A stretch of DNA of 64,000 nucleotides from CAVYHJ01 sp963768165 [NCBI: uncultured bacterium] (GTDB lineage: Bacteria > UBP4 > UBA4092): NCBI GenBank assembly GCA_963768165.1, contig CAVYHJ010000002.1, forward strand, positions 558,001-622,000, read 5' to 3'. The position numbers and the translations under genes were made by a program. The notes beneath the pieces were generated by a model. It was not told the DNA's origin, searched no databases, and was given only the letters and a program-made list of their open reading frames with translations. Below are positions 94-19,429 of this stretch, piece after piece; the stretch's first letter is position 1; each line of letters opens with the position of its first letter.

Positions 94-1863
94 TTACGAG
101 TTGTTTATGTCATCCGGGTTTTTCTCCTGTTCGCGCTTAAATTCATCTGGATGTTTCTTCATCCATTCTTCATACGACATTTTTCCATGCCACCACATCC
201 GGTTCACCGGATGTTCTTCACTCAAGACAAAGACATGGAACAAGTGCCAGATTAAAATTGCCAAAGTCGCAAGTACCGCTTCAAAGAAATGAATTAAAAC
301 CGCCATATCAATAACCCATTTGGGCCAGGTCTGCATGAAATACTCTTTGAACCAGATAATCAAGCCCGTGGGAATCATAATCATGCCGCCCCACACGACC
401 GCCCAATATTCCGATTTCTCTACAAACGTAAACCGCTCATAGTTCGGCAGTGTAGGTTTCCGGCCAATAAAGTAAAGGAGAGTATCCCGTAATTCGCGGG
501 CGTCGCGTAATCGCGGGAGCAAATGATATAACTCTTGGCGTCCTTCTTTCGTAAACAGAATATAACAAAAATGAAATAAGCAAAGTCCGATAAACACCAA
601 TGCGGCGGTTCGGTGTATCCATGAACGCATTTGGAATCCGCCAATGAGTTTGACAAAGAGTATCGAGAATGGGCTATCAGGGAAACTCTTGGCGAATCCG
701 GTAATAACCAGAGTAATAAAACTTAACAACAATACGGCATGTTGAATTCTGGCATTTCGGTTCATTCGCTCGTACCCCAGAATCGGCGGGTTCAACATAA
801 TTTCATGGCGCAGTTCCAATGCATTATAGAGCAGCATACTGAGGAGTGTGAGCGGAATCATGACCAGATAAAACCAGCGGATAGCAATAACCGTGGGGTC
901 CGACATGTCCGCTTTATCCACATGAATTTTGGCTTTTGTCCAATTGATATTCGCTCTGGGATGACAGGCGGGTTGTCCGCATGTTTTTGGTAAATTGGCA
1001 AGATTGATAGAGGATGCCGGATCGGATTGCGGTCGTATATTATGAGCGGTATGGCAATCTATACACACTGCCGCTCGTTGATCTCCCAATTGATGAGCGG
1101 CTCCATGAAAAGTCTCCATATAGGTTTTTACCTTGGTCGGATCAATGTTATATTTCTTCATCATGCGCGCGGAAGCGTGGCAATCGGAACAGGTTTGCAC
1201 CACATTGGATTCCGAAACTGGAGAAGAAGTATCTGTTACTTTCTTAATATTATGTTCTCCGTGACAATCCGTACAGGTCGGCGCATCAAAAATTCCTTTT
1301 GCCAAAGCCCGGCCATGAACACTGGTTTTATAATCGGCATAGATTTCCAGATGGCAGGCACCGCAGGTTTTCGCCACATTGGGTTTGCTGACACGGGAGT
1401 TTAAGTCACCGGCATGTCGAATATCATGGGTCCCGTGACAGGATTTACAGGTGGGTGCGTTGGGATTTCCGTTCAATAGGGCTTTCCCATGGACACTATC
1501 ACGGTATTCGGCATATTTCTCCGTGTCGGGAGCACCGATTTTATTCCCCGCAAAATGACATCCGCTGCAATTGACCGGCTGGATATCTTTCTTATGCGGA
1601 ATGGTCGTGATATCCCGGTGGCAATCCGTGCATTGCCGGTTGTGATGCACCGATTGGTCGAATGTTTCTTTATCCACTGTCAGCGGTATGATTTGACCAT
1701 TGGGTAGGGTTTTTGTTAGTCCGGCTTTCCCATGACACATAAAACAGGCATTATTATCAATCGCAAAACCAGGAGATACCATGAAATGGTAATTGACTAA
1801 GAAAAATAAAAATATATATATCAATAATAAATTAAGAGAGAACTTGTAATAACTATTTTTCAT
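94..1863 (-). CDS. Multiheme cytochrome c fused to membrane cytochrome b (CbcL-like)
   Basis: A 589-residue protein with a signal peptide ending near 'SPGFA'. Its periplasmic part has eight CXXCH sites, the first at C40-C43-H44, plus one CX4CH site (CGQPACH), so eight or nine c hemes. About five membrane segments follow (roughly residues 325-560) with spaced histidines typical of the cytochrome b561/HydB family. The layout matches CbcL of Geobacter, an inner-membrane menaquinol oxidase that passes electrons to periplasmic cytochromes at low potential. It is the last gene of the minus-strand cytochrome operon, so a quinol-pool exit point for the EET chain is a natural inference. Orthology to CbcL rests on architecture, not alignment; another cytochrome b/c3 quinol dehydrogenase is possible. 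Confidence 0.8.
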   Translation of the reverse strand: MKNSYYKFSLNLLLIYIFLFFLVNYHFMVSPGFAIDNNACFMCHGKAGLTKTLPNGQIIPLTVDKETFDQSVHHNRQCTDCHRDITTIPHKKDIQPVNCSGCHFAGNKIGAPDTEKYAEYRDSVHGKALLNGNPNAPTCKSCHGTHDIRHAGDLNSRVSKPNVAKTCGACHLEIYADYKTSVHGRALAKGIFDAPTCTDCHGEHNIKKVTDTSSPVSESNVVQTCSDCHASARMMKKYNIDPTKVKTYMETFHGAAHQLGDQRAAVCIDCHTAHNIRPQSDPASSINLANLPKTCGQPACHPRANINWTKAKIHVDKADMSDPTVIAIRWFYLVMIPLTLLSMLLYNALELRHEIMLNPPILGYERMNRNARIQHAVLLLSFITLVITGFAKSFPDSPFSILFVKLIGGFQMRSWIHRTAALVFIGLCLFHFCYILFTKEGRQELYHLLPRLRDARELRDTLLYFIGRKPTLPNYERFTFVEKSEYWAVVWGGMIMIPTGLIIWFKEYFMQTWPKWVIDMAVLIHFFEAVLATLAILIWHLFHVFVLSEEHPVNRMWWHGKMSYEEWMKKHPDEFKREQEKNPDDINNS

Positions 1864-1943: not shown

Positions 1944-2651
1944 TTATTTCTTGTGATAACGATCCTCAACCACTCTCTTTTCAAATGAATCGGCTAATTT
2001 TTTGATGATGATTTCGGAAAGCTGGCTGAGAGAAACAATTCTGCCAATTCCGAAAATCTTCTCTTTTTGGTTCCCCCGGCCGAATTGATGGTCACTCCAA
2101 TAGAGTTTTCCGGTTTTCGTATCAATGGCACGGGCGGCAATCCCGATAACGGGAATATCGTTGTTCCCATCGCGTACAAATTTATACTCCACAACGGAAC
2201 CGAGAATCAGATAATCCACATTTAATTTTTCACCCAGTTTTTTGGCTACCTCCACTTCGATTTCTCCCGTACTGCGCACTCTTTCATCAATCAGGGCTTT
2301 TTCAACTTCCCCCAATTCCATGAGATTGAACGTTTCACTTCTTGAAAATAATTCGGTCAGCAGAATAGTGGTAATCCGTTTGGCGGCATCCGGTTCTTCA
2401 CTCAGATTATCAAACGGAAGTATCGCTATGTGTTTAATTTGTATGTCTGTCTTCCGTTCGGTCTGTAGAGACGTTGTTTCTCCCGATGAAGCGCTGACTT
2501 GACAAAAACCAAGAGAGGGTATGCAATACCAGGCAACTGCGAGCACAAACAAACTTAGAGAGGGTATGCAATACCTTAAACAAGAGGTAATCTTAAAACT
2601 ATGTCCTCGAGAAATCGAGGATTGAAACTTGGAACTTGAAACTTGGAACAT
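1944..2651 (-). CDS. CsgG-like periplasmic/outer-membrane protein
   Basis: A 235-residue protein. From about residue 75 it shows the CsgG/TolB-N-like fold pattern: IAILPFDNLSEEP, then alternating strands and helices with ADL-type spacing and 'DYLILGSV'. Its neighbour at 2669 is a paralogue. The ATG at 2651 is preferred over an in-frame TTG at 2660 because the GGAAGGAG ribosome site is well spaced for the ATG. The N-terminus is odd: residues 2-50 are largely encoded by repeats (a TTGAAACTTGGAAC tract, a CCTCGAG palindrome and two GGTATTGCATACCC elements giving YCIPSL twice). The signal peptide is therefore rebuilt from repeat DNA, and no clean lipobox remains. CsgG relatives form outer-membrane export pores or assembly factors; the role here is unknown. 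Confidence 0.6.
   Translation of the reverse strand: MFQVSSSKFQSSISRGHSFKITSCLRYCIPSLSLFVLAVAWYCIPSLGFCQVSASSGETTSLQTERKTDIQIKHIAILPFDNLSEEPDAAKRITTILLTELFSRSETFNLMELGEVEKALIDERVRSTGEIEVEVAKKLGEKLNVDYLILGSVVEYKFVRDGNNDIPVIGIAARAIDTKTGKLYWSDHQFGRGNQKEKIFGIGRIVSLSQLSEIIIKKLADSFEKRVVEDRYHKK
2512..2575. repeat. Two copies of the GAGAGGGTATGCAATACC element
   Basis: GAGAGGGTATGCAATACC occurs at 2513-2530 and again at 2558-2575, both inside the N-terminal coding region of the CsgG-like gene. Read on the minus strand, both translate as YCIPSL. A one-base variant lies at 18216-18235. Confidence 0.75.
2605..2620. repeat. CCTCGAGAAATCGAGG hairpin element
   Basis: The 16-base hairpin CCTCGA-GAAA-TCGAGG, preceded by TGT and followed by an AAACTT-rich simple tract, lies inside the start of the CsgG-like gene. 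The identical element with the same flanks is at 19455-19470, upstream of a response regulator gene. Confidence 0.7.
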
Positions 2652-2668
2652 TTTATTCAACTCCTTCC

Positions 2669-3322
2669 TTATAATTTTTTACTTATTTCGCCAACAATAT
2701 TTCTACAAACATCTTGTGTCAGTTCACTTAAGGTATATTTTTCTCCAAAACCGATGAAAGGAACTCCCGGACCGCCGCGTTTTGTAAAACTGGACATCCA
2801 GATTATCGTTCCGGTTTTTCCGTCTACCAACCGAACATTTAAAGAGATTTGAGGGTATTGTTCCGACCCGACCCGTACCATTTCATAACTGGTTACGGAG
2901 CCGATGACCAATGCCTGGCAATTGAGTTGGCCGGTAATTTTTTGTAGTTTTATCAAATCCAGATTGGTTGCTCCTTCAGGGCCGAATATCGCTGAACCAT
3001 TTCCATTTCCATTCACCTGAGCTACTTGTAATGCCTTGCTGACTTCGCCCGGTTCCACGATATCGAAATCTTTGGCAATCAACATTTCCGACAAAAAAAC
3101 CTGGCTGACTTTTTCACCCACATATTTTTCATTGGTGAGATTTTCAAAGGGGATGACAGCCACCCGTTTGATATACCCCATATCGGTATTGGGATGAACA
3201 AAAACTCTGCTGGTCGCTCCACAACCGAATAAAAAGACCAACAGAAGTAGATTCGCAGTAATAAAGAAATAATTCCACCCTAAAGGGTATCCTACCCATT
3301 TTCGATTTCTTATCGCTTTCAT
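2669..3322 (-). CDS. CsgG-like outer-membrane lipoprotein
   Basis: A 217-residue protein with an N-terminal hydrophobic stretch ending in a lipobox-like LFGC (C34), so probably a lipoprotein. The rest repeats the CsgG-like pattern of its neighbour: VAVIPFENLTNEKYVGEKV, 'FDIVEPGEVSKAL', 'CQALVIGSVTSYE' and 'LVDGKTGTIIW'. Start supported by AAAGGAGTG nine bases upstream. It sits between the beta-barrel gene and its own paralogue in the cytochrome operon. CsgG is the nonameric curli secretion pore, so an outer-membrane assembly or export role for this pair is plausible, but only an inference. Confidence 0.7.
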   Translation of the reverse strand: MKAIRNRKWVGYPLGWNYFFITANLLLLVFLFGCGATSRVFVHPNTDMGYIKRVAVIPFENLTNEKYVGEKVSQVFLSEMLIAKDFDIVEPGEVSKALQVAQVNGNGNGSAIFGPEGATNLDLIKLQKITGQLNCQALVIGSVTSYEMVRVGSEQYPQISLNVRLVDGKTGTIIWMSSFTKRGGPGVPFIGFGEKYTLSELTQDVCRNIVGEISKKL

Positions 3323-3337: not shown

Positions 3338-5854
3338 TCAAAAAGATTTGGTAAATCTGGCATAAACAGTTTGTGTTGTTCCGCTGCCTTGTTCTTCAAA
3401 ATATTGATACCCCAAGTCAAGGCTGGTTTGATATCGAAATCGGAATTGCAAAGTCGAACTAAAGGTCGAGGAATTAGTATCCCCGAGGGATTGTGAAAAA
3501 GAATTGGTCATAAAGAAATTATTTTTAGGTTTCCAGGAATAGCCGAGAGTATAGGAAAGGGTATTGGCTTGGTCGGAATTGAGGGTATAGCTGGCATTGG
3601 CAAAGAGATTGAGGGAGGAACGTATCCAATCATTTAGTTCGGTGGTGATGGTCAATTGGGAGGAATTGGAATTGGAGGTTGTCCCATCCGAGGTGGTTTT
3701 GGATTGGTTATCGGTATATTGAATCGTTTCATTCCATAAAAGTTTATCCGTCGGATGAGAGCGAAAACGCAATCCCAACGATTCACTATTGCTGTTGATT
3801 TGGTCGGCGATATCGTTAGTTTGATTATAAGTTCCATACAAGTCCGCGGAAGCTTCTGGTAGGAGTTGGCCCGTCAAGGTCATAGAGATCTGGTCACTGA
3901 TAGAGGTTTTGGTATCCATAGAAAAGGTTTCGGAATGGGAATAATTGCCATTGAGAGAGAGGTCGGGATAGAGTTGGGAAGTGAGAGTAATAGAACCGGT
4001 ATTGGTTTGGGTATTGGAGGAGGTATCTTCGGTATATTTACTGATGGAATAATCGAGATTAATATTGGTAAGTTCATAGGGTCTCAAGTTAATACCGAAA
4101 TCATGCGTAACTTGTTTGGAATCCTGAGAGGATTGATTATTAGAATCCTCCTGCGTAAGAGTCCAATCATGGTTCCCGTAAAGGGACACTAGATCATTGG
4201 GGGCTACCCGCCAACCGAAAGAGTATTGTTGATAGAGGGTATTGGTGGTGGCTACGGAAGTGCCTTCCTGATGCGTATTGGTTAGGTTATACCCGAAATT
4301 AAAATCGAAATAGTCGGAGGGATGAAGTCCGTAATTTAAAACCAGTTGATTGGTAACCATTTTAGACCAGGATTGGCTGGAGGTAATGGTGACAAAATTT
4401 CCAAAATTGGAGATATAGGCGCCATCGGAAGAATACGTTTCGACCAGACCGTTTTGGGTATCGGCAATGAATAGATGAACCGCCGGGCCAATGGCAATGG
4501 AATTCCCGGATTGGGAACCATAGGCACTCCATTTATTGACAAAAATTCCGGCAGTGGTAAACCGTTGAATGCGTTGATTGCCATAATCCAGGACATAGAT
4601 ATATCCCTGATTGTCGGCAGTGATTCCCGTGGGGGTATTGAATTGCCCATTTTGATTGCCGACGGTTCCCCATTGAGAAAGATAATTGCCGGAAGAGTCG
4701 AATTTTTGGACGCGATGATTATTTTGGTCAGTAACATAGACGTTGTTAAATTGATCCAGGCAGATTCCAACTGGAGAATTAAAATCGCCGTCCCCGGAAC
4801 CGGACGTTCCCCAGGCGGTGATAAAACTACCGGCGTTGGTAAATTTTTGAATCCGTTGATTGCCCTGGTCTACCACATAAATATAACCCAGATTATCCAC
4901 TGCCAATCCGTTGGGCGTATTGAATTTACCATTACTGGAACCGTATCCTCCCCATTGGGTGATAAAAGTTCCGGTGTTGGTAAATTTTTGCACGGAATGT
5001 AATTGCGCATCCGAAACATATACATTCCCGGAATTATCCACCGCAATTCCCGCGGGTTTCATGAACTGGCCGAGTCCTGACCCGAATCCTCCCCATTCTC
5101 TGACATAACTGCCGGCGCTGGTATAAATTTGGACATTAAAAGTCAAATCGCTGAGCGTGTAGACATAACCCGCGGCGTCCACGGCGAGCGCCACCAGTCC
5201 TTGCAAATTCTGGCTGTTCTGGGTCTGCGGATTACTCCAAAAAGTATAATCGGTGCGGGAGGCGGAGATGTTTAAATCTCCCAGTTGATAATCCCCCTTT
5301 AAAGTAAGTGTATTATTTTCGTTATTCACCGCATGGATATTTTGGTCATCGTAATACCGGTTCCCGGTATAATTAATCGTAATGCGCGGTAAATCCGGTG
5401 GGGTTAATACGAGATTGATATTTTCATATTTGGAAATTAATGGCGCCTCCCCGGTTCCGTAATTATCATCCCGATAATCCGAATATTTCAAGGTCAGGTC
5501 ATATTGTTCCCCCCGCATATCCATACTCCAGGTCGGGCGGACTTGAATATTTTCCGAAGAAGGTTTTTCAATCAACATATCCAATCCTAAATCAATTCGA
5601 TTCTTATAAAGTTGGTCTTTCCAATCTAAACTTAAACTCTGGCTCCAGGAATTATCCTGATTGTTCCCCGGCCAAGATTCTAAAAAAGATAAGCTGGAAT
5701 ACCCGGTTAACTGCGGTTGACTTTGACACCATCCATGGATTGTCATTTTAGTATTCATCATAAGAAAAAGTATAGATATTGATATTTCATATCGTCTCTT
5801 AATGATACGACGCCAAAAAAAAAACTTATTTAATTTATTTAACGAATTTAACAT
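3338..5854 (-). CDS. Outer-membrane beta-barrel with inserted NHL beta-propeller
   Basis: An 838-residue protein. Residues about 50-205 and 490-838 are alternating amphipathic strands with many aromatic, Asn and Thr residues, and the chain ends in Phe (ARFTKSF), the usual outer-membrane beta-signal. Residues about 219-485 are NHL repeats (for example GIAVDNSGNVYVSD and GYIYVVDQGNQRIQKF), five or six blades. The propeller therefore interrupts the barrel instead of capping an end. The gene lies between the 8-10-heme cytochrome and the CsgG-like lipoproteins. This suggests an outer-membrane component of the EET machinery that may dock or guide extracellular cytochromes. It lacks the CXXC features of MtrB, so it is not a plain MtrB/PioB homologue. 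The N-terminal signal is unusual but has a hydrophobic stretch near residues 24-34. Confidence 0.75.
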   Translation of the reverse strand: MLNSLNKLNKFFFWRRIIKRRYEISISILFLMMNTKMTIHGWCQSQPQLTGYSSLSFLESWPGNNQDNSWSQSLSLDWKDQLYKNRIDLGLDMLIEKPSSENIQVRPTWSMDMRGEQYDLTLKYSDYRDDNYGTGEAPLISKYENINLVLTPPDLPRITINYTGNRYYDDQNIHAVNNENNTLTLKGDYQLGDLNISASRTDYTFWSNPQTQNSQNLQGLVALAVDAAGYVYTLSDLTFNVQIYTSAGSYVREWGGFGSGLGQFMKPAGIAVDNSGNVYVSDAQLHSVQKFTNTGTFITQWGGYGSSNGKFNTPNGLAVDNLGYIYVVDQGNQRIQKFTNAGSFITAWGTSGSGDGDFNSPVGICLDQFNNVYVTDQNNHRVQKFDSSGNYLSQWGTVGNQNGQFNTPTGITADNQGYIYVLDYGNQRIQRFTTAGIFVNKWSAYGSQSGNSIAIGPAVHLFIADTQNGLVETYSSDGAYISNFGNFVTITSSQSWSKMVTNQLVLNYGLHPSDYFDFNFGYNLTNTHQEGTSVATTNTLYQQYSFGWRVAPNDLVSLYGNHDWTLTQEDSNNQSSQDSKQVTHDFGINLRPYELTNINLDYSISKYTEDTSSNTQTNTGSITLTSQLYPDLSLNGNYSHSETFSMDTKTSISDQISMTLTGQLLPEASADLYGTYNQTNDIADQINSNSESLGLRFRSHPTDKLLWNETIQYTDNQSKTTSDGTTSNSNSSQLTITTELNDWIRSSLNLFANASYTLNSDQANTLSYTLGYSWKPKNNFFMTNSFSQSLGDTNSSTFSSTLQFRFRYQTSLDLGYQYFEEQGSGTTQTVYARFTKSF

Positions 5855-5869: not shown

Positions 5870-7483
5870 TTAATATTCATAATTGGGTGTCCAGTTGACT
5901 CCGGTCGTATGTGCGTGACACGAGCCAAGAATCGAAGAACCTGGGGGAGTCCAACATCCACCTGAGCCGAGGGTACCTGAGTTGCCGGAAGAAAATCCAA
6001 CGATACTCGCGCCATTCATAAAATGTTCCCCGAGATTAGAAGATCCGCGTATACCCCTACCGGTATTGGTTCCATGGATTCCCCCGACCGCATTGCCTCC
6101 ATGACAATTGAGACAAGGATTTTTCCAAACATTGGAGTTGGCATTAAAGTGTTGTGCCCCGCCAAAACTGTGGTCAAATCGGCTCAGGGCGCGGGTGGCT
6201 CTGGTTCCAAGCGAACCATCGTTATACACATCCTGTCGGTGACATTTCCAGCAGACATTGGATGGGTCTGGGACTGATCCAGCAAGAATGGTCTTATTGG
6301 TTGATCCATGAGGACCTTGAGGATGGAAACTATTCCCGGTATTTAATTCACTCCCGTGACAATCACTGCAATAGATTTGGCTGGTTTTGGTAATTGGAGA
6401 AACAAAGGTTTGTTCGTAATTAGGATTAAGAGTTTGATTTTTTCCCATGGATTCGACAGCGTGTTGCGAAAGGTTATTGGGATTAAATTCGACACTCTGG
6501 TCGGTAATCTTGAATTGCGGATAAGATGGGAAGGTAATATTGGTAATTCCCGTTGCCCAGGACGAATGACATTTAAAACAAATTTGATATTCGTACGCGA
6601 CCCCTTCATGTCCTTCGGGATTTTCTGTGACGGCATCGGGAGCAATATAAATATAAGAGGGTATGGTTCCTGCCGTGCTATTGATGACCTTAATTCCATT
6701 GACTCCGCATAACATCTCGGAGGCGATATTGGTCGGCATGACATGGGTTTGTTCTCTTGAAAGGTGCGGGTTGTGACAATCCGAACAATCGAGATGGCGG
6801 TTGGTGATACCGTATTTAGTTCCATCATTTCCTTCCGCTTCGGAATGGCGGTCGGTGTATTTGGAATAAGTAAGATAATGTTGGGTATTGAACTGGCCGT
6901 TATTTTTGGAAAATTCTGCCGCGATATCATATCGGGCAGGCCCGTTTAGCCCATGACACCCCAAACAAAGTTTTTCGGCTCTGGCGAATTGCATAGCGGG
7001 AATCAACCCTTGGGAATCAGAAACTCCATGCGGGTCATGACAATTAATACATTGTCCAACCTCTCCGCCATCTCTCGCCCAGGGAATTGGACCGGGCCAT
7101 ATCATATTGGGACTGTTATTATGCCCGCTGAGATTATAGGTTTCACTCCCTTGATAGGACTGGTTGGGCACTCCGCTATCATGACACCCGCTGGTATAAC
7201 ACAAGGAATTATTATTTTGTGCGAATAATAAATAAGCATAAGGTCCGGCGGTATTGGTTCCTTGTATACCGGAATGTTGATAATGGCATTGGGCACAATC
7301 TCCTTTGGGTTGATGGGTATCCCGCAAGATACCGGTCATCGGATTTCCATGTTTAGTCTGAAGATAGACCCCTCCGGCAAAGCAAGGAGTAATTAACAAT
7401 GATGAATTAAGTATAAAGCAGAATACATGGAAGAAAGCGAACCGGTGCTTTTTTATATTCATAATTCTTAATTCATAATTCAT
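5870..7483 (-). CDS. Secreted multiheme cytochrome c, 8 canonical plus 2 long heme motifs
   Basis: A 537-residue protein with a signal peptide ending near 'ITPCFAG'. Eight CXXCH sites are visible (first at C63), plus CYTSGCH (CX4CH, residues 95-101) and a C-terminal CX11CH (C510, C522-H523), so up to ten hemes. The N-terminus MNYELRIMNIKKH comes from an AT-rich simple tract around the start. The AGGAAG site upstream supports the ATG at 7483, with a second ATG at 7462. It follows the OmcS-like gene by 14 bases and precedes the beta-barrel gene, so it is probably a periplasmic or extracellular relay. No close family is recognised. Confidence 0.8.
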   Translation of the reverse strand: MNYELRIMNIKKHRFAFFHVFCFILNSSLLITPCFAGGVYLQTKHGNPMTGILRDTHQPKGDCAQCHYQHSGIQGTNTAGPYAYLLFAQNNNSLCYTSGCHDSGVPNQSYQGSETYNLSGHNNSPNMIWPGPIPWARDGGEVGQCINCHDPHGVSDSQGLIPAMQFARAEKLCLGCHGLNGPARYDIAAEFSKNNGQFNTQHYLTYSKYTDRHSEAEGNDGTKYGITNRHLDCSDCHNPHLSREQTHVMPTNIASEMLCGVNGIKVINSTAGTIPSYIYIAPDAVTENPEGHEGVAYEYQICFKCHSSWATGITNITFPSYPQFKITDQSVEFNPNNLSQHAVESMGKNQTLNPNYEQTFVSPITKTSQIYCSDCHGSELNTGNSFHPQGPHGSTNKTILAGSVPDPSNVCWKCHRQDVYNDGSLGTRATRALSRFDHSFGGAQHFNANSNVWKNPCLNCHGGNAVGGIHGTNTGRGIRGSSNLGEHFMNGASIVGFSSGNSGTLGSGGCWTPPGSSILGSCHAHTTGVNWTPNYEY

Positions 7484-7497: not shown

Positions 7498-8592
7498 TTA
7501 TTTGTTATGACATTGTTGACAGGATTGCATCAACGAAGTCCCGTCTTCCCGATTTGGTGATAACGGGTTATCGTAAATCAATCCAAATGGATTGGTGGAG
7601 CCATGCGCTTTATGACACGTAATACAAGCCACTTGGTTATCACTATTTGTGTTAGTTCCCGGAATTTGATTACTGGGAGAAACGACCGGTAAACGGGATT
7701 TTAATTTCTCATTGAACCATGCCGACGAGTCCAAATGTTGGTTCTTGACGGCTTGTGACATAGTCACTCCAGTGATGGGATGCTGTACCCATGCGGAATT
7801 GGTGGCATTATTGTCCCCGAGCAAAATCCCGCTGTCATTTATTTCACCGCCCGTACCATGAAAATTCGTATGACATCCTTTACACCATTGGCTTAATCCA
7901 TCCACAGGGGTATCCCTCCGGTATTGAATGTTTCTGGTGGAATAGTGAATTGAAGTGGGGTTCAACTCGACTTGAAAAATCGAAGAAGATCCGCTATAGA
8001 TACCATTGATATAAGATACTTTTAAATGGGTACCGTTCCCCACATTTGATTTAAGACTTCGATAATTTCCATTACCGTGCGCGTCGTGACAGCTTACACA
8101 GGTTAAGCCGGTAGGAAACGTGACAATCGGATTACTCCCCGGAGCGATGTCTTTAACTACCCCCAAACTATGTCCCTTATGAGAAATAACTCCAACCGAA
8201 CCTTGGAATGAACCTGCCGCCCGCTTAAGGACGGGAGTTTCGTAGGAAGCCACACCCCATACATCCGGCGCACCGTTTATGCCACCCGTGCCACTATCAT
8301 GACAACTTAAACAGAGAAGATTTACAGAATCTGCACGAATCAAGAATTCGGATGGTCCCGCGTAAGATTCGCCGGAAGGTGTCTTTATGGGTGCACCCCC
8401 TTCACTGTAATGCATGGTATGGCAATCCGAACATTGTAAATCGGTATGGTAGGGGTGAGGGTCATCGGCAAAACAAGAATTATTCATAAGTAAGACAAAA
8501 GGTAAAAGTAGGATAATAGCAAAATTAATATTATAGATTGTAGATTGCAAATCTGAAATCTGAAATCTGAAATCTGAAATTTCTTTATTCAT
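7498..8592 (-). CDS. OmcS-like hexaheme cytochrome (copy B)
   Basis: A 364-residue secreted protein with six CXXCH sites: CSDCH (C54), CLSCH, CVSCH, CKGCH, CITCH and CQQCH. Spacing and flanks follow Geobacter OmcS: a first heme in CSDCHTMHYS, then CVSCHDAHG followed by YRSL, then QWCKGCHTNFH, CITCHKAHGS and a last heme at the C-terminus. OmcS packs six bis-His hemes per subunit and polymerises into conductive filaments. Copy A is at 12029-13126. The signal peptide's n-region derives from a GAAATCT tandem tract at 8553-8580. AAGGA precedes the ATG. The gene lies two bases downstream of an NHL propeller gene. Confidence 0.8.
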   Translation of the reverse strand: MNKEISDFRFQISDLQSTIYNINFAIILLLPFVLLMNNSCFADDPHPYHTDLQCSDCHTMHYSEGGAPIKTPSGESYAGPSEFLIRADSVNLLCLSCHDSGTGGINGAPDVWGVASYETPVLKRAAGSFQGSVGVISHKGHSLGVVKDIAPGSNPIVTFPTGLTCVSCHDAHGNGNYRSLKSNVGNGTHLKVSYINGIYSGSSSIFQVELNPTSIHYSTRNIQYRRDTPVDGLSQWCKGCHTNFHGTGGEINDSGILLGDNNATNSAWVQHPITGVTMSQAVKNQHLDSSAWFNEKLKSRLPVVSPSNQIPGTNTNSDNQVACITCHKAHGSTNPFGLIYDNPLSPNREDGTSLMQSCQQCHNK

Positions 8593-8594
8593 TT

Positions 8595-9608
8595 TTATTC
8601 CTTAATTTCAAAGACTTGAACTCGATTGGTTCCTTTTTCCAACACATAGACCCGTCCTTGAGAATCAAAAACTAGATCTATGGGAAAATAAAATTGGCCG
8701 TTTTCTTTTCCGGTTGTACCCAATTGAAAAAGGTAATCTCCTTTGGAAGAAAATATTTTCAGCCGGTGTTGAAAACTGTCCACAATCCAAATTCTCCCTT
8801 TCCTATCAATGGCAAATCCGGTGGGAAAAGAAAAATTAAACTCTTGTGACCCGTGTTCCCCAAAACTTTGTACCAGATGATTGGTGGTATCAAAAGTGTG
8901 TATCGCTGTTCCTAATGAGGAGAGGAGATATAATTTGTCATCCTTTGTAATCTGTAATCCCGCGTATTGTTCACTTTGCAACTGATTTTCTTGAATTCCA
9001 TCCAGGGCAGCCATAAATTGTCCCTGGGAATTTAATTTTACCACCTGACCGTTGGCCCGATCAATAACATATAAGTTGTCAGTTTTGTCTATAAACAGTT
9101 TACCGGGGATTAACCCCGTTAGACTATCCGGTTCTATCTGGCGTATAGTTTTTTTCGAGTATGAGTCTAACGGGGTGAATTGTTCCTGTCCCAACGTGAA
9201 TTTACTGAAATCATATTCCTTGATCAACTCTCCTCGAAAATCCGCTTGTTTGACTTTCAAGGTATTAGCCTCCGACCAATAGATATTCCCGGCAGAATCC
9301 GTGGCCACAGACACAGGGGAGGAGACTCGTTTTTCACGTCCAAAACGAAATCGCAGTTTCCCATTGGTATCAAATATTCCTATTGAATCATTGTCGGTAT
9401 CCGCGATGAGAATCTCATTTTGATTTGAATCAAACCAAATTCCTTGCGGTTCTAAGAAAAAATCGTGTCCACCATATCCATTGATGGTGTAAAGCCAGAC
9501 TAATTGTATGGATGGGTTGGCAGACTGGGTTTCCTGAAACAATGCAATAAAAACAATTCCAAAAACACAGAAGATAAAACCTAATTTATTTGACCAATAG
9601 TTCGCCAT
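8595..9608 (-). CDS. Secreted NHL-repeat beta-propeller protein
   Basis: A 337-residue protein with an N-terminal signal sequence ending near 'QETQSA'. NHL repeats fill the rest: DNLYVIDRANGQVVKLN, GRIWIVDSFQHRLKIFS and GRVYVLEKGTNRVQVFE. Its last two blades resemble the propeller of the receiver-NHL fusion at 13183. It overlaps the upstream PD40 gene by 23 bases and lies two bases before OmcS-like copy B, so the two are probably coupled in translation. NHL proteins are neighbours of omcS in Geobacter; a role in secretion, capping or assembly of the cytochrome is inferred, not shown. Confidence 0.8.
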   Translation of the reverse strand: MANYWSNKLGFIFCVFGIVFIALFQETQSANPSIQLVWLYTINGYGGHDFFLEPQGIWFDSNQNEILIADTDNDSIGIFDTNGKLRFRFGREKRVSSPVSVATDSAGNIYWSEANTLKVKQADFRGELIKEYDFSKFTLGQEQFTPLDSYSKKTIRQIEPDSLTGLIPGKLFIDKTDNLYVIDRANGQVVKLNSQGQFMAALDGIQENQLQSEQYAGLQITKDDKLYLLSSLGTAIHTFDTTNHLVQSFGEHGSQEFNFSFPTGFAIDRKGRIWIVDSFQHRLKIFSSKGDYLFQLGTTGKENGQFYFPIDLVFDSQGRVYVLEKGTNRVQVFEIKE

Positions 9609-11676
9609 CTGTCTGTCCTGCCAAGTCTTTTATTTTGATACGTTCGACATTCCCAGTGGTTGAGGTATAAACCATAACATCCTCCTCCGGTAAAAAAGAT
9701 TGAAAGACTCCTCCGGCGGAGGTCATTTTTTGGGATTCCCCCCCGCTCGTGGGAATCCGGAATATATTGGGATTTCCATCTTTGTCGGAAGTAAAATAAA
9801 TATATTTTCCATCCGGTGTGAATAACGGCGGATAGGTATAATCATGTTCAAAAAGTGAAAATTCACTTAAGAGCGGTTCCTGGTAAAGTTTTCTCGGATT
9901 GGAACCATCCCTGTTAATCATCCAGATTTCTTTATACACCGTTTGATTCTCCCAGTCATCCATGGTGAACAGCAATTGATTCCCAAGAGGAGACCATTTT
10001 AGATTACTGATAACCCGGGTGGGATTCCGATTACTTGTTGAATCGGGATTGTAATTTTCCCTAGAATGAGCCCCCGCGGTATCCATAATCCATAAATGTC
10101 CGTTCCCAATAAAGGCAATTTCTTTTCCATCGGGAGACCATTGCGGTACTAAATCCACAACATTGGGTGAAATTTCAGGATGGTTTTTAATTCGTAACTC
10201 CGACAAATCCATGACCAGGGAGTCGCTGGATTTCCCAATTAAAATATGCGGCTGGCCATTGCGGATGGTACAGACAAGTAATTGCCCGTCGTGATGATTA
10301 AGGTCTACAGATAACAGACCGTTGGGAAAGTTTAACAATGGATGATTCGCCGGATTGGCAATATCGCAGGACTCCAGATACGTATCGGAAATTAAAATAA
10401 TTTTTTTTCCGTCCGCCGACCACAGGATCCGGGAATCAAAATGCGGTTGGATATTCGAAATCTTTGACACGAGTTTTCCGTCTCGGGTAACAATCTCAAT
10501 TTGTGTATTTTTAGATTGATTGGTGAAAAAGGCGATTTGGGAACCATCGGGAGATACCTCCGGTGCCCATTCTGAATAGCTTGACTGGGTTAGTCTGTGT
10601 AACTTTTTCCCGCCATTAGGGACACCATGCAATGGTCCAATGGTAAAGATATCCAAACCAAAACTCTTTTGAGATTTACCGGAAAATAGGATTAATTTAC
10701 CATCAGGAGACCATTCCGGGTTGGACCCGTGGATTGTTTTTGGGGTAATTTGGATCGGTTTTGTTCCATTGGCATTAATTACCCAAATGCCTATAGTTGT
10801 TCCCATTTCACCGGTATAAGCAAATTGTTTATCATCCGGAGACCATTTTACAGGCGTGCCTTTGTTACCGGGTAAAGCAAACTCTTTTTTGGCAGTGCTG
10901 TCGGTATTCATGACCACCAGGATATGTTGTCCTTTTCCTGCCGATTGAGTGAAGGCAATGCGTTTTTTATCATGGGATACGCTCATTACACCGCAAAATC
11001 CATGAAAGACCAGTTGTTTCTTTCCATCAGTAGAGACCCCAGTACTAAAAATGGCACTGAGCATGGTTTGACCCACCTGATATATGATTTTCCGGTCATT
11101 CTCAATCCAATGAGGATTTTGTATCCAGAGACCGGATGTTAGTTGGATCCTGTGGGCGCCATCTTTTTGAACGACCCACAAATCCCGGCCGACCGTGGAA
11201 GCAGCTAAATATGCCACCCATTGGCCATTCGACGACCAAACTGCTTCCGTGACATCTTGGGGGAGTAGCGAAATGGGTTTTCCTAAGAGACACCCTGCAA
11301 GGGTTTCCTTGTCATCCAGGGAATATTCGAAAAGATGGGCAGCTCCATTTCGAAAAGAGATATAATGAATTTTTTGGCTTTCTATTGACCAGGAATAATC
11401 ATTCACATCCCCTAACAGTAACTTATGGGCTTCATTGCCATCTGAATTCATTATCCATAAGGAACCGGAATTATGCGGGCTCGAGGAAAGAAAAGCGATT
11501 TTTTTCCCATCCGGTGACCAGCGTGGGAGTCTCCCTCCATTGGGTAAATCATCGGGTCTGGCAAATTGTTGGGATACAATAAAGATATAAACAAATAATA
11601 ATAAATAGAGTGGTTTAATACTATTAAACTCGGTAAAAAGATTGTATTGTGTCCATTGTTTAAATTGTCTGCGCAT
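9586..11676 (-). CDS. PD40/TolB-like beta-propeller protein, exported
   Basis: A 696-residue protein with one N-terminal hydrophobic segment (about residues 20-40), then PD40/WD40-like repeats throughout. Copies of the type WSPDGKKIAF, WSPDDKQFAY, WSPDGKLILF, VSPDGSQIAF and FTPDGKYIYF recur about nine times, enough for a double propeller. There is no peptidase domain, so it is not a TolB or DPP-IV enzyme. It is the first gene of the large operon, directly behind a sigma54 promoter, and overlaps the next NHL gene. A periplasmic scaffold or partner-binding role is likely; the substrate is unknown. Confidence 0.75.
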   Translation of the reverse strand: MRRQFKQWTQYNLFTEFNSIKPLYLLLFVYIFIVSQQFARPDDLPNGGRLPRWSPDGKKIAFLSSSPHNSGSLWIMNSDGNEAHKLLLGDVNDYSWSIESQKIHYISFRNGAAHLFEYSLDDKETLAGCLLGKPISLLPQDVTEAVWSSNGQWVAYLAASTVGRDLWVVQKDGAHRIQLTSGLWIQNPHWIENDRKIIYQVGQTMLSAIFSTGVSTDGKKQLVFHGFCGVMSVSHDKKRIAFTQSAGKGQHILVVMNTDSTAKKEFALPGNKGTPVKWSPDDKQFAYTGEMGTTIGIWVINANGTKPIQITPKTIHGSNPEWSPDGKLILFSGKSQKSFGLDIFTIGPLHGVPNGGKKLHRLTQSSYSEWAPEVSPDGSQIAFFTNQSKNTQIEIVTRDGKLVSKISNIQPHFDSRILWSADGKKIILISDTYLESCDIANPANHPLLNFPNGLLSVDLNHHDGQLLVCTIRNGQPHILIGKSSDSLVMDLSELRIKNHPEISPNVVDLVPQWSPDGKEIAFIGNGHLWIMDTAGAHSRENYNPDSTSNRNPTRVISNLKWSPLGNQLLFTMDDWENQTVYKEIWMINRDGSNPRKLYQEPLLSEFSLFEHDYTYPPLFTPDGKYIYFTSDKDGNPNIFRIPTSGGESQKMTSAGGVFQSFLPEEDVMVYTSTTGNVERIKIKDLAGQTDGELLVK

Positions 11677-11703
11677 GTTTTTGACCTGTTCTTTCTATTA
11701 TAA

Positions 11704-11719
11704 AGCAGGTACTATGCCA
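11704..11719 (-). promoter_or_regulatory. Sigma54 (-24/-12) promoter of the PD40-NHL-OmcS-barrel operon
   Basis: On the minus strand the sequence reads TGGCATAGTACCTGCT, with the invariant GG and GC ten bases apart as in the RpoN consensus TGGCACG-N4-TTGC. It lies 28 bases upstream of the ATG at 11676. Related sites occur at 14686, 29315 and 29932, each at an operon head. Confidence 0.7.
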
Positions 11720-11721
11720 TC

Positions 11722-11737
11722 TGCGTAATTTTACACA
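11722..11737. promoter_or_regulatory. TGCGTAATTTTACACA operator-like palindrome
   Basis: A 16-base near-palindrome two bases upstream of the -24 element. It resembles the perfect TGCGTGATATCACGCA pair at 14814-14851 and TGCGTAAAATTTCGCA at 29332-29347. Probably bound by a regulator shared by the three operons. Confidence 0.55.
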
Positions 11738-11948
11738 GTTTATAGAATATTGTTTTTATTATGCTTAATTAATTATTTTAAACTCTAAACTATAAGCCCT
11801 AAACCATGGAACTTTATTTAAATGTGTTATTCCATAACGTGATAGTTACTTGTTTAATCTAAATGATTGATTTTAATATAGTTGGATTAATCATAAATTC
11901 TATGCTTAAGAAAGCAACACTGTATTGATAAAAGACATCAAAGACTTT

Positions 11949-12000
11949 AAAAAAGAACCCGAGTTTTGACATTGCATACCGTCTCTTACAAAACTCGGGT
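11949..12000 (-). terminator. Intrinsic terminator of OmcS-like copy A, with a repeat in its loop
   Basis: A perfect 12-base stem (ACCCGAGTTTTG, 11957-11968, with CAAAACTCGGGT, 11989-12000) is followed on the minus strand by six T. The 20-base loop (11969-11988) is a copy of the ATTGCAT-core element, as if the repeat had inserted into the terminator loop. Confidence 0.8.
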
Positions 12001-12028
12001 CTATAACCAATTACTAAAAAATTAAGAA

Positions 12029-13126
12029 CTATATACCACCGCCCTCTTCATGGCACTTGTTGCATTGACCTAGGGCACTCGCTTGAGTTGGATCCCAACG
12101 TAACGCGTTAGGATAAGCCGTCGCATGTGCTTTATGACAAGTCAAACACATAATATGATCAGCATTACCTAATGTTCCACCACCTGTATTGGTCCAAGTT
12201 CCATTACCCTCGACCAATGGATAATTGTAGTCATAGGTGCTGCCAGTCGTATAAGCTCTGAGAGAGGTTAGGGCACTATTGGTCGGATGTCTGATATAAG
12301 CAGTCCCGTCCCAATCGTTGGCGGTTTGATCAATTTCAGCATGGAAATTCGCGTGACAACTCGAACACCATTCGGAAAATCCGCCTTTATAGACATTTAT
12401 GTTGGTCGCACTTTCACTCTGCTGTAAACTTGCTCCATCAGGTCCCGGACTGACCTTTCCACCAGAGACAACCCAAGCGCGGCTTATGATTGAATCGGTG
12501 GACACCAAGGTACTATTGCCAAGGGGTTCAGCCAACAACAATCGGTATCCATAGTTTTGATAGGATGCGAGACGGGATACACTGACATTTCCACTTTCCG
12601 GTCCGTGTACTCCGTGGCAATTAGTGCATTGAAAACTGCTCATCGTCGTACTACTTCCCGGGGGAGTCAAACCTGTCGCTCCACCATCCGGACTCGGATT
12701 AAAATTGACCGATGGATAAGCGGCGCTCCCAAACGGGTTGTGTCCGCCTGCGGTTAATCCCGGTAAGGTGGCTTGTGGAATTTTTGCACTATATCCAAAA
12801 TCACCACCCGGCAATAGAACCGAGGCACTCGCCGGGTTCGTATTATACACACTGGGTGCACCGGTATAACCATTATTCATGTGGCATTGCAAGCACAAAT
12901 CCGTTATATTGGATTTGACCAATAAGTATTCAAAAGGTCCACCCAAGTCCGCATTTTGTGGATAACCATTATTCACAGTATTGGGTACTTCTCCACCTTC
13001 ACTGTAATGCATGGTATGGCAATTGTCGCAAACCAACTCACTGCCATTATGAAATGCCAACGCTGGAATAGCTGCGAACAATATGAGTGCAACGAAAAAT
13101 ACCAAAGTTAGTTTCATTATTTTCAT
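12029..13126 (-). CDS. OmcS-like hexaheme nanowire-type cytochrome (copy A)
   Basis: A 365-residue secreted cytochrome with signal peptide 1-24 (ending PALA) and mature start FHNGSELVCDNCHTMH; Geobacter OmcS begins FHSGG then CEGCHTMHNS. Six CXXCH sites: CDNCH (C33), CLQCH, CTNCH, CSSCH, CLTCH and CNKCH. Other OmcS hallmarks in order are PGGDFGY after heme 2, a YRLL stretch, EWCSSCHANFH, an RHP motif, CLTCHKAHATA and a terminal CNKCH. OmcS forms filaments with a continuous heme chain, so a nanowire subunit is the leading call. The ATG at 13126 has a GGGGGTG site. An upstream ATG at 13186 with AGAGGAG overlaps the stop of the receiver-NHL gene and would add 20 residues. A strong terminator follows the gene. 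Confidence 0.85.
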   Translation of the reverse strand: MKIMKLTLVFFVALILFAAIPALAFHNGSELVCDNCHTMHYSEGGEVPNTVNNGYPQNADLGGPFEYLLVKSNITDLCLQCHMNNGYTGAPSVYNTNPASASVLLPGGDFGYSAKIPQATLPGLTAGGHNPFGSAAYPSVNFNPSPDGGATGLTPPGSSTTMSSFQCTNCHGVHGPESGNVSVSRLASYQNYGYRLLLAEPLGNSTLVSTDSIISRAWVVSGGKVSPGPDGASLQQSESATNINVYKGGFSEWCSSCHANFHAEIDQTANDWDGTAYIRHPTNSALTSLRAYTTGSTYDYNYPLVEGNGTWTNTGGGTLGNADHIMCLTCHKAHATAYPNALRWDPTQASALGQCNKCHEEGGGI

Positions 13127-13182: not shown

Positions 13183-14655
13183 TCATGATTTTTTCTCCTC
13201 TAGCGGCGGGGTTTGAGTTAGAACTTGAAACACTTGAATCCGATTCATATCGGGTTCGAGCACATAAATATGTTGGTTGGAATCTATGGCAATCCCGTGC
13301 GGAAAATAAAATAATCCATTGGTCATACCCAATCTGCCAAATCCAAAAAAACATTCCCCGTCTTCGTCATACAGTAAAACCCTGTGGTGACTGGAATCCG
13401 TTACCATAATCCATTTCCGGCTCTCGTCATAGGCCAGGCCGGATGCCAGACCTAGAAAATAATCGCCATCCCCGGTTTTCCCGAATGAACGTATTAAATC
13501 TCCTTCCGGGTTGATGACCAATACTTGATTTCTCGCCGCATCCAACACCAATAAATCCCCCCGGTCATCCAACGCCATATCGGTCAACGATTTGATAACT
13601 ATATCCGGGTTTTTCTTCCCGCTGATTTCCTTGATTAATTCTCCCGTGATGATATCTACGATAAAAATCCTGTTTTTCTTGCTGTCCCCTACATATAACC
13701 GGTCCTGTTTGTCAATCAATAATTTGCGAATACTTATTTCCGGAGGGTTGGCTGTTTTCGTGTTTTTTTTCGAGTCGCTATTGGTGAAGAACGAAGGCTG
13801 GGTGGTTTGTTCGCTCTGGGTTAGCATCTTGGATAAATCCAGATACCCTTTGACATTCCCCAAATAGTTGAGAATGGCGATCAGCGGTTTGGAAACATCC
13901 CCCACGTAAAAATTGCCTTCCTGGTCTTGAGTAACCGATCCGGGGTATTTTATTTTACCGAAACTATTCCATTCATGGGTGATAACCCCATTCGTGTCGT
14001 AGGAAAATATTCGATGGCTGCCCAGGTCTACCACATAGATTTCTTTATCATTGGAATCGAAATAAATCGTATATGGAGTATTTAACTTTTCATATTTGGT
14101 TCCGGCATCTTTGATGGTATACAAATATTGGGCAATATATTTTGAGGAAGATACAGGTGCGGTTTGATCTTGGGCGAAGGTTAATGTATGGCAGCAAAAC
14201 TGGAATATAAATAAAAGCGACAAAAAACTTAATAAGGTAAGACCATGCCCAGACTTCTGCGTCGAGAATGAGTCTTTTTCTTTCTCGACGCCTGTTTCCT
14301 TCAATAAATCTTTAATATACCGGATGAGATCTTTCATATCAAAGGGTTTCGCCATCCATAAAGCGATATTTTCATTCCTCGCTTCCCACGCATCCTTTTC
14401 CGTGCCATAAGCCGTGATGACAATGGCTTTAATCTTCGGCAGAATTTTCTTGATTTCCCGCACGGTTTCCACCCCGTTCAACCCGTCCATTTTTAAATCG
14501 GTCACGATTAAATCAAACTTGATTTGTTTGGCCTTCTCAATGGCTTCTTCCCCGGAAGAGGCGAGTTCTATCTCACAATCGTTGTCGCTCAGTACCTGGC
14601 CAACAGACCATCTCACTAACTTTTCATCATCTACTACTAAAACGGTGTATTTCAT
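13183..14655 (-). CDS. Receiver domain - membrane segment - NHL propeller fusion
   Basis: A 490-residue protein. Residues 1-120 form a complete response-regulator receiver (acidic D9/D10, phospho-acceptor D53, T81, K103). Residues 138-161 (LTLLSFLSLLFIFQF) are a signal-like or transmembrane segment ending in TFAQ. Residues about 175-480 are NHL repeats whose last blades match the propeller at 8595. The joint (residues 122-133) is encoded by a palindromic element at 14259-14291. No in-frame ATG separates the halves, and the frame is open throughout. As built, a cytoplasmic receiver would be tethered to a periplasmic propeller. Alternatively two genes were fused by the element. The gene has its own sigma54 promoter and is followed by OmcS-like copy A. 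Confidence 0.75.
   Translation of the reverse strand: MKYTVLVVDDEKLVRWSVGQVLSDNDCEIELASSGEEAIEKAKQIKFDLIVTDLKMDGLNGVETVREIKKILPKIKAIVITAYGTEKDAWEARNENIALWMAKPFDMKDLIRYIKDLLKETGVEKEKDSFSTQKSGHGLTLLSFLSLLFIFQFCCHTLTFAQDQTAPVSSSKYIAQYLYTIKDAGTKYEKLNTPYTIYFDSNDKEIYVVDLGSHRIFSYDTNGVITHEWNSFGKIKYPGSVTQDQEGNFYVGDVSKPLIAILNYLGNVKGYLDLSKMLTQSEQTTQPSFFTNSDSKKNTKTANPPEISIRKLLIDKQDRLYVGDSKKNRIFIVDIITGELIKEISGKKNPDIVIKSLTDMALDDRGDLLVLDAARNQVLVINPEGDLIRSFGKTGDGDYFLGLASGLAYDESRKWIMVTDSSHHRVLLYDEDGECFFGFGRLGMTNGLFYFPHGIAIDSNQHIYVLEPDMNRIQVFQVLTQTPPLEEKKS
14259..14291. repeat. Palindromic element at the receiver/NHL joint, in frame
   Basis: Arms GCGTCGAGAA and TTCTCGACGC. On the minus strand it encodes GVEKEKDSFSTQ. 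The copy at 27164-27196, inside a ccsA-like gene, encodes the related VGKEKNSFPTQ in the same frame. The G-to-A change in one arm is matched by a C-to-T change in the other. Confidence 0.8.
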
Positions 14656-14685: not shown

Positions 14686-14701
14686 CGCAATATCTGTGCC
14701 G
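14686..14701 (-). promoter_or_regulatory. Sigma54 promoter of the receiver-NHL/OmcS-A operon
   Basis: Minus strand CGGCACAGATATTGCG: GGCAC and TTGC match the RpoN consensus with GG-N10-GC spacing. It ends about 30 bases before the ATG at 14655. This is the best match among the four sites in the window. Confidence 0.8.
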
Positions 14702-14813: not shown

Positions 14814-14851
14814 TGCGTGATATCACGCAACCAACTGCGTGATATCACGCA
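14814..14851. promoter_or_regulatory. Tandem perfect palindromes, probable enhancer for a sigma54 activator
   Basis: TGCGTGATATCACGCA occurs twice (14814-14829 and 14836-14851), centres 22 bases apart, about two helical turns. The sites lie about 115-150 bases upstream of the -24/-12 promoter, as expected for upstream activating sites bound by dimers of an NtrC-type activator. Two such activators are encoded in this window (17999 and 38943). Confidence 0.7.
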
Positions 14852-17998: not shown

Positions 17999-19429
17999 TT
18001 ATTCCCGTTCTTTCAACATCCCATATTTCTGCATACGGTAACGGAGGGCGTCGCGGGATAATCCGACCAGTTGGGCGGCGTGGGTCTGGTTCCGGTTACA
18101 TCGTTCAAGCGCTTGAATGATTAATTCTTTTTCCACATCATCAATCTGGCATCCGTCTTTCGGCAAGGCAAACTGGAGTGTCGGTTTTCCATTCTTATCT
18201 GAGAGACCATTTCCTGAGAGAGGGTAGGCAATACCTAATTCTCTGGGCAATAAATCTTCCGTAATGGATTCCTGCCTAGAGCCCGCGGGAATGACGGAGG
18301 ATGTGAGGATGACCGCCCGTTCAATGACATTGGACAATTCCCGGATATTGCCGGGCCATTTATACGCCAGTAACTTTTTCTTCGCGTCTTCCGAGATTCC
18401 CTGAATGGTTTTTTTACAGCGCGCGTTAAACCGGGCAAGGAAAAAGTCCGCCAGTAGTAAGACATCGTCTCCCCGTTCCCGCAACGGCGGCAAAGACAGC
18501 GGGAGAACCTGCAGGCGATAATATAAATCTTCCCGGAAACTTCCGAGTTCGACCAACCGGTGTAAATCTTTATTGGTGGCGGTTTTAATACAAACATCCA
18601 CTTCGATATCCTGCGTTCCACCCACCCGCCGAAACCGGCGGTTCTCCAATATCTGCAACAGCTTGACCTGGAGATGCAGCGGCATATCGCCAATCTCATT
18701 CAAGAAAATAGTGCCCCCATCCGCCAATTCAAACAATCCTTTTTTGGTAGATTTGGCATCGGTAAACGCCCCTTTTTCATAACCCATTAATTCACTTTCG
18801 AGAAGGTTTTCCGGGATGGCATTGCAGTTTACCTCGATAAACGGCATAACCCTTCTGGACGATTCGTGATGCATGACTTTCGCCAATAAATCTTTTCCTG
18901 TCCCGCTTTCTCCCAGCAGTAACATGGTAGTCGGATGACTCTCCACGATTTTTTGGGCGTGTTCAATGAGCTGCTGAACCGCCGGGCTTTTTCCAATAAT
19001 ACTCTTCCAACTATATTGCCTGGTTCGTTCATCATGCACCGATTTGATTTCCCGTTTTAACCTGACCCCCTGCAAAGCCTTTTCCACTTGAATGGAAAGT
19101 TCATCCAACTGAAAGGGTTTCCCGATATAATTATCCGCGCCATATTTCACCGCCGTAACCGCCGTGGTCAAATCGGTTTTTCCCGTCACCATGATAATAG
19201 CAGTCTCCGAGTCGGTCTTTCGGATTTGCTGCAGAACCGTTAACCCGTCAATTCCCGGGAGGGTAATGTCCAATAAGATTAAATCCGGTTGTTCCGCGGA
19301 ATATATTTCAATCGCCTCTTCGCCTGATTGCGCGGTGAATACTTCATACCCTACCCCACTCAACATTTCTTTCAACGCCCACATGGCGAGTTTTTCATCT
19401 TCGACAATCAGTATTTTTCGTTTTGCCAT
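17999..19429 (-). CDS. NtrC-family sigma54-dependent response regulator
   Basis: A 476-residue protein: receiver domain 1-120 (phospho-acceptor D54), AAA+ domain with GESGTGKD Walker A at about residues 170-177, and a C-terminal Fis-type helix-turn-helix (THAAQLVGLSRDALRYRM). The sigma54-contact loop reads GAFTDA instead of GAFTGA, a known natural variant. Its partner kinase is encoded 64 bases upstream. It is the last gene of the operon that makes heme, cytochrome maturation factors and the 45-heme protein, so feedback onto the sigma54 promoters in this window is likely. Residues 399-405 (IAYPLSG region) derive from a GGTATTGC repeat element in the linker before the HTH. Confidence 0.9.
   Translation of the reverse strand: MAKRKILIVEDEKLAMWALKEMLSGVGYEVFTAQSGEEAIEIYSAEQPDLILLDITLPGIDGLTVLQQIRKTDSETAIIMVTGKTDLTTAVTAVKYGADNYIGKPFQLDELSIQVEKALQGVRLKREIKSVHDERTRQYSWKSIIGKSPAVQQLIEHAQKIVESHPTTMLLLGESGTGKDLLAKVMHHESSRRVMPFIEVNCNAIPENLLESELMGYEKGAFTDAKSTKKGLFELADGGTIFLNEIGDMPLHLQVKLLQILENRRFRRVGGTQDIEVDVCIKTATNKDLHRLVELGSFREDLYYRLQVLPLSLPPLRERGDDVLLLADFFLARFNARCKKTIQGISEDAKKKLLAYKWPGNIRELSNVIERAVILTSSVIPAGSRQESITEDLLPRELGIAYPLSGNGLSDKNGKPTLQFALPKDGCQIDDVEKELIIQALERCNRNQTHAAQLVGLSRDALRYRMQKYGMLKERE
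18216..18235. repeat. In-frame GAGAGGGTAGGCAATACC element
   Basis: A one-base variant of the element duplicated at 2512-2575. It is in frame in the AAA+/HTH linker of the response regulator and is read as GIAYPLS. Confidence 0.55.

Follow-up and report, generated by a model that had tools for sequence, protein, structure and literature searches.

Two OmcS-family hexaheme cytochromes, a candidate filament subunit and a candidate companion, in a putative divergent osc-type locus of an uncultured UBP4 bacterium

Two hexaheme cytochromes related to OmcS

The analysed stretch of 64,000 nucleotides (nt), referred to as the window, covers positions 558,001 to 622,000 of contig CAVYHJ010000002.1 from an uncultured bacterium of the lineage UBP4. 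It carries two genes for hexaheme cytochromes, copy A and copy B, with similarity to OmcS, the nanowire cytochrome of Geobacter sulfurreducens (PDB 6EF8, 6NEF):

12029..13126, minus strand: copy A, hexaheme cytochrome, A-clade of the OmcS superfamily, candidate filament subunit
7498..8592, minus strand: copy B, hexaheme cytochrome, B-clade, candidate companion (base or cap)

An earlier note on this DNA had predicted two proteins with six CXXCH sites each, and both open reading frames (ORFs) were located at these positions on the minus strand with six sites per protein. The motifs CHTMHYS, EWC/QWCxxCHxNFH and CLTCHKAHA/CITCHKAHG were present exactly as predicted in the translations. PGGDFGY, which the note gave for copy A, occurs in A and not in B, and so does the FHNG start, which the note had ascribed to both copies. 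Mature A comprises 341 amino acids (aa) from FHNG, mature B about 322 from a start at about DDPHPYH. The in-frame ORF of A continues upstream of the stated start, and one alternative ATG lies across the stop codon of the preceding gene.

The resemblance to OmcS claimed in the earlier note was borne out by searches against 177,635 distinct sequences of the PDB, in which OmcS was the top solved-structure match of both proteins. As single sequences, A matched OmcS with an E-value of 7.4e-14 (A residues 25-345 on chain residues 1-346) and B with 5.4e-7 in separate pieces, followed by OmcE at 0.0074. Clade profiles gave lower E-values: the A-clade profile retrieved OmcS nearly over its full length at 5.2e-26, as the sole chain up to E 0.1, and the B-clade profile retrieved it in pieces at 3.2e-22, with NrfA, also a CXXCH protein, as runner-up about 18 orders weaker (2.2e-4). 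Since OmcS ranks first among all these sequences for each protein, the resemblance is more than chance. An assignment of A and B to the OmcS-family hexahemes is supported by these sequence comparisons. A similarity caused by the CXXCH sites as such was rejected, as NrfA, octaheme reductases and OmcE scored far below OmcS. Among Pfam and NCBIfam models, those exceeding the cut-off for A and B were limited to general doubled-CXXCH and cytochrome c7 families.

A and B share with OmcS the order of the six CXXCH sites, twelve histidine columns, the CHTMH motif and the N-terminal histidine; they differ in the length of the mature protein (407 residues in OmcS) and belong to separate clades. Distant OmcS homologues have been published, among them one from Coriobacteriales at 28% identity (PMC7399161) and others (PMC10954620). 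Like A and B, these proteins come from outside Geobacter and combine low identity with a full set of six heme motifs; the accessible text of these reports describes neither a pairing of A and B nor a companion gene order. For syntrophic sulfate reducers, OmcS-like and OmcX cytochromes are described, in the portion of the report available, as OmcS homologues in multi-gene electron-transfer clusters (PMC10553843); our comparison with A and B is one of descriptions, and an equation of OmcX with the X-type group introduced below is a guess.

Histidine ligands

Twelve histidines serve as axial ligands in an OmcS subunit: eleven belong to the subunit itself, and the twelfth, which binds heme 5, is contributed by a neighbour (PMC6584659); the accessible text of this report and of a review (PMC7096707) states the ligation and leaves the donor residue unnamed. 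We aligned A and B with 24 rows picked for an N-terminal FH, one of which (L006:9250) is X-type by the tree. Exactly twelve columns were histidine in 25 or 26 of the 26 rows, and A and B hold all twelve. In the wider set, these columns were histidine in 12-13 of 13 rows of the A-clade, 8-9 of 9 of the B-clade and 14-15 of 15 classic OmcS rows, the absent cells in the A-clade and B-clade coming from two truncated rows. The donor to heme 5 of the neighbour is presumably His16, the second histidine of CHTMH, which is present in both A and B. This column is not trivially kept, since the paralogue L050:1313-2623 of the Geobacter-type genome G163 has lost it.

Phylogenetic groups

For a first tree, 91 ORFs with five to seven CXXCH were deduplicated and A and B were added; 80 rows passed E 1e-5. 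A group of 27 rows, consisting of OmcS-type proteins, A, B and one Nitrospirota protein, split at 100/99 from 53 rows of a broader hexaheme group, for which we coined the label X-type. The second tree had 59 rows: 13 classic and 18 X-type rows of the first tree, A, B and 26 new rows, a 27th being a duplicate. It resolved 22 X-type rows, a B-clade of 9 (100/95), an A-clade of 13 (99/97) and 15 classic OmcS rows (100/100). Both trees are unrooted, and B carried a long-branch flag (2.54) in the first tree that it lost in the second. As judged from these trees and from the gene orders below, A and B are two old lineages which recur together in other genomes.

Membership of A and B in the X-type was rejected, as neither showed CAGxxGCHG or GCxGCH together with an HH pair and the lack of the N-terminal histidine. 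The X-type is a large sister group, and many of its members (L001-L057) have an unusual heme-3 motif CAGxxGCHG, whose cysteines enclose five residues, with an HH pair after it. In the phylum of G002, 38 of 295 genomes matched A with an X-type or classic-type protein, often with several. OmcS-like domains were also seen within giant open frames of about 1770-2575 residues in G692, G005, G693 and G694; the frame L083:674-5980 of G692 matches B at 2e-64.

Genes around A and B

The following genes surround the two copies:

94..1863, minus strand: eight-heme c domain with a cytochrome b561/FdnI-type membrane domain, possible quinone module
1944..2660, minus strand: CsgG-family protein 2 (Pfam; osc profile 2e-32)
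2669..3322, minus strand: CsgG-family protein 1 (Pfam; osc profile 4e-35)
3338..5854, minus strand: barrel-like protein with an NHL propeller between its two parts (osc barrel profile in pieces flanking the NHL)
5870..7483, minus strand: P0003 cytochrome, eight CXXCH, 37-40% identity to three orthologues
8595..9608, minus strand: NHL propeller directly upstream of B (Pfam NHL, relatives)
9586..11676, minus strand: PD40/TolB-like beta-propeller (Pfam; uncut relatives E 1e-75 to 7e-78)
13183..14655, minus strand: RR-NHL, a Response_reg domain (3e-24) joined via a hydrophobic stretch to an NHL propeller (6e-23)
17999..19429, minus strand: sigma-54-dependent response regulator
19494..20990, minus strand: histidine kinase, sensor region with one CXXCH (CQRCH)
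21000..24404, minus strand: 45-heme cytochrome

From the PD40 gene to the second CsgG gene, the window genes overlap or lie at most 15 nt apart by ORF coordinates. Each copy adjoins an NHL gene, as the earlier note had claimed, RR-NHL lying directly upstream of A and the gene at 8595-9608 directly upstream of B. The same note had claimed this neighbourhood for omcS in Geobacter, and in G163, whose closest protein to OmcS shows 73% identity across OmcS residues 1-345, an NHL gene (L050:17784-18722) directly precedes the omcS-like gene (L050:16260-17714); like A, this relative of omcS has a hairpin past the gene. The RR-NHL frame has an odd cytoplasm-to-periplasm layout for a single ORF and could be two genes read together. 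CbcL, which we take to be an inner-membrane cytochrome combining a multiheme c domain with a b561/FdnI-type membrane domain and nine CXXCH, is similar by description to the protein at 94..1863, which has eight CXXCH. Within the 64-kb window no rRNA, tRNA or other Rfam family was found. With HemA as a marker for the host phylum, 15 of 16 genomes gave a match, the best at 41-48% identity (the 48% covering 206 of 452 residues), and 2 of 247 genomes of another phylum reached E 1e-110, each at 44%; these matches led to no assignment.

The locus was compared to the osc operon, which was reportedly defined by Shen in 2025. This operon (GSU2504-GSU2493) was read in G163; letters of Osc proteins other than the multihemes OscI and OscJ were assigned from gene order. 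Functions of the osc genes were taken second-hand from the accessible text of two publications (PMC13194489, PMC12977616). Osc-type blocks were seen in G163 and in genomes of the G002 phylum, which we took as Nitrospirota. They contain hexahemes, an NHL protein, a propeller, barrel-like, CsgG-like and prolyl-isomerase-like proteins, and cytochromes with 26 and with 15 or 16 hemes; the propeller, of the YncE/lactonase type, and the prolyl isomerase were confirmed by Pfam in both loci tested. The window shares with the osc operon hexahemes, propellers, barrel-like and CsgG-like proteins and large multiheme cytochromes. Profiles built from four osc loci matched the two CsgG proteins, the NHL proteins and the 45-heme protein of the window, the latter with an E-value below 1e-240. 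In contrast to the osc operon, the window has a PD40 instead of a YncE-like propeller, a propeller inside the barrel-like protein, the additional P0003, and a kinase and a sigma-54 regulator nearby; a prolyl isomerase was not found in the window. Possibly the PD40 propeller takes the place of the different propeller of the osc blocks. The 26-heme and 16-heme proteins of osc correspond in the window to one 45-heme protein, which aligns across their joint length; the second half of this alignment is ambiguous because of repeats. Such single cytochromes of 42-45 hemes, having the joint length, were seen in five genomes (the window, L078, L080, L096, L097). On the basis of gene content and profile matches, the window locus is read as a divergent form of the osc locus that accompanies omcS in Geobacter.

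Recurrence of the gene order

A shared order was present in relatives: NHL, A in one to three or more copies, PD40, NHL genes, B, P0003, barrel-like protein, CsgG proteins and a 42-heme cytochrome. With the nearest relative of A (in G002) as query, 6 of 230 genomes of its class matched at E 1e-15: G002 itself, four with a best match of 52-57% identity and one with 30%. G682 and G684 have three A-type gene copies each, G654 and G002 one. The stretches of G682, G684 and G654 hold the A-type gene or genes, PD40, two NHL genes, B and P0003 and, where they reach as far, a protein of 600 aa that we regard as barrel-like, a pair of CsgG proteins and the 42-heme protein; G002 and G687 show parts of this order. 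The similarity of the window barrel-like protein to its 600-aa positional counterpart was not significant. In the window, by comparison, PD40 and B are separated by a single NHL gene, and the 45-heme gene is located upstream beside the kinase and regulator and not at the end of the operon. In G1094 the genes from A through the 42-heme cytochrome follow this order, and a classic OmcS osc locus is present in addition; its CsgG genes in the former stretch were not seen through the ORF filter used. In the literature searched we did not find the order A-PD40-NHL-B-P0003 described, and the osc-defining paper may treat wider distributions.

B occurs once per A-containing operon read and stands beside P0003 wherever the stretch extends that far. 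P0003 orthologues have eight or nine CXXCH and adjoin B-type genes in the six stretches extending past B. Searches for the P0003 family identified clear orthologues in the G008 phylum (L021, taken as Terriglobia; 2 of 247 genomes) and the G001 phylum (L001, taken as Desulfuromonadales; 2 of 297); no other match came near these, the strongest having E 6e-45. In G1114, P0003 and a 1131-aa ORF that includes NHL are present, and neither A nor B could be recognized clearly. Two phylum-level groups (G002, G001) share an OmcS-type assembly locus whose distinct gene order recurs, and a third (G008) has sets of B and P0003.

These arrangements bear on the proposal of the earlier note that the organism builds two kinds of conductive filament. 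If both A and B polymerised, two OmcS-class filaments would result. All twelve ligand-type histidines, that of CHTMH among them, are retained in B, and G741 and G800 each have two B-type genes and P0003 with no A-type gene in the stretches read; both points speak for this reading. Against this stand the smaller size of B, its own clade, its single copy in A-containing operons and its packing among assembly genes; it is the A-type genes that are repeated in several relatives, and A in the window is followed by a likely terminator. We therefore depart from the note on this point and regard two filaments as unlikely.

Transcription signals

The following signals were located near A and B:

11704..11719, minus strand: sigma-54-like -24/-12 element, 27 nt before the PD40/B unit
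11957..12000, minus strand: likely intrinsic terminator after A, with a 12-bp perfect stem, a 20-nt loop and a T-rich tail
14686..14701, minus strand: sigma-54-like -24/-12 element, 30 nt before the RR-NHL/A unit
14814..14851, no strand assigned: two tandem copies of the palindrome TGCGTGATATCACGCA, possible activator sites

The hairpin lies about 28 nt past the stop codon of A, and none of 100 mononucleotide shuffles was equally good. It is missed by a standard terminator scan with a loop limit of 8, and folding of the complete 352-nt gap after A is no better than that of shuffles (z -0.95). Terminators were found in 4 of 12 stretches, namely after A in the window, after omcS in G163 and between copies 2 and 3 in L078 and L079. 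The sigma-54-like element before RR-NHL has 2 mismatches and keeps GG-N10-GC. In a post hoc test with a background of 0.020 per 300 nt, elements with at most 2 mismatches occurred in 4 of 18 upstream stretches, compared to 0.36 expected; a fifth had 3 mismatches. Across the window such matches were not enriched (18 compared to 11.4 expected, with 7 of 100 shuffles having as many). The palindromes are located about 160 nt before the RR-NHL gene. With up to 3 mismatches allowed, the window has no sites beyond these 2, compared to 0.17 expected; the pattern was derived from the site itself.

Division of labour between A and B

The sequence family, the histidine pattern, the recurring gene order and the terminator-like hairpin were observed. 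For polymerisation, division of labour, export, electron path and regulation of the locus we infer the following scheme. The locus at 94-24404, as a divergent osc-type locus, probably makes and exports an OmcS-class filament with A as subunit and B as low-copy companion. The likely terminator, the packed B operon, the sigma-54-like elements and the repeated A genes favour A as the abundant subunit and B as its low-copy partner. A would form the filament with six bis-histidine hemes in line, the second histidine of CHTMH reaching into the next subunit and ligating heme 5 there. B, a related hexaheme produced with the assembly operon, may start the filament or connect it at the outer membrane together with P0003, the barrel-like protein, the CsgG proteins and the propellers. 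Electron transport through the periplasm may fall to the 45-heme protein and exchange with quinones to the eight-heme/b561 protein, and the heme-bearing sensor kinase and the sigma-54 regulator could switch both transcription units. A likely filament lineage is thereby told apart from a likely companion lineage.

Several results weigh against this scheme. The identity to classic OmcS members is low, 26-33% for A and 22-27% for B. The spacing between hemes 5 and 6 is 28 residues in A and 35 in B, compared to 60-75 in the classic members and 46-48 in the other six-heme rows of the A-clade, so that the subunit interface of A and B must differ from that of OmcS, which measures about 1900 square angstroms by the accessible text of PMC9473688. 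The A-clade and the classic OmcS rows are joined at a weak 87/77 with B outside this fork, in an unrooted tree. As to the likely cytochrome-nanowire locus of the earlier note, its content resembles the osc assembly locus; the osc prolyl-isomerase profile had no match in the window, the osc propeller profile retrieved no more than a fragment of RR-NHL, and the osc barrel profile matched weakly (1.4e-7). In 8 of the 12 gaps tested no terminator was found, and 14 of the 18 upstream stretches, including those of most A units of relatives, had no sigma-54-like element at 2 mismatches. AlphaFold models from two 31-row alignments (A, B and 29 of 33 hexaheme rows from L001-L020, excluding L005:2206, L008, L011 and L012) had mean confidence values (pLDDT) of 38.6 and 39.1 and were unusable; Foldseek with these models gave 0 and 2 matches, none of them meaningful.

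The low identity and the short spacing would also suit A and B as monomeric or short-chain electron carriers of the surface or periplasm, the wire habit being special to the Geobacter branch. According to the accessible text of PMC12977616, the published OmcS family includes paralogues not known to form wires, OmcS alone among those of G. sulfurreducens being known as one. The twelve conserved histidines, ordered as in OmcS-type proteins, and the recurrence beside osc-type genes speak against such carriers, which we consider improbable.

The filament scheme, with A as subunit, may be extended to a two-part wire in which A forms the shaft and B a base or cap tying the first A subunit to the outer-membrane complex. 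B would then offer the same heme chain, the same histidine donor and the same open heme-5 site as A. This extension, tentative and rather doubtful in our judgement, would explain the recurrence of A, B and P0003 in distant genomes. The capping of cytochrome wires is called unclear in the accessible text of a review (PMC7096707). If true, the base or cap role would answer how they are capped, and B is a concrete candidate for their anchor or cap.

Respiratory genes elsewhere in the window

A cytochrome oxidase and an alternative-complex-III-like cluster were read at 41090-53724, two proteins of which were domain-tested; the names of the other members of alternative complex III are our assumption from ORF reading. 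The cluster suggests aerobic or microaerobic respiration alongside the nanowire-type locus. An inward wire, carrying electrons from Fe(II), minerals or a partner cell to oxygen via this cluster, is a question of direction and compatible with the filament scheme. COX1 and a molybdopterin-oxidoreductase protein at 42-51 kb, presumably a part of alternative complex III, agree with it, but no sequence feature sets the direction and the b561/FdnI-type protein would suit quinol oxidation just as well; we see inward transport as possible, if somewhat unlikely. At 29936-34175, one or more GcvH-like proteins lie beside a ferredoxin-NrfD membrane protein; one GcvH-like protein and NrfD were checked by domain search.

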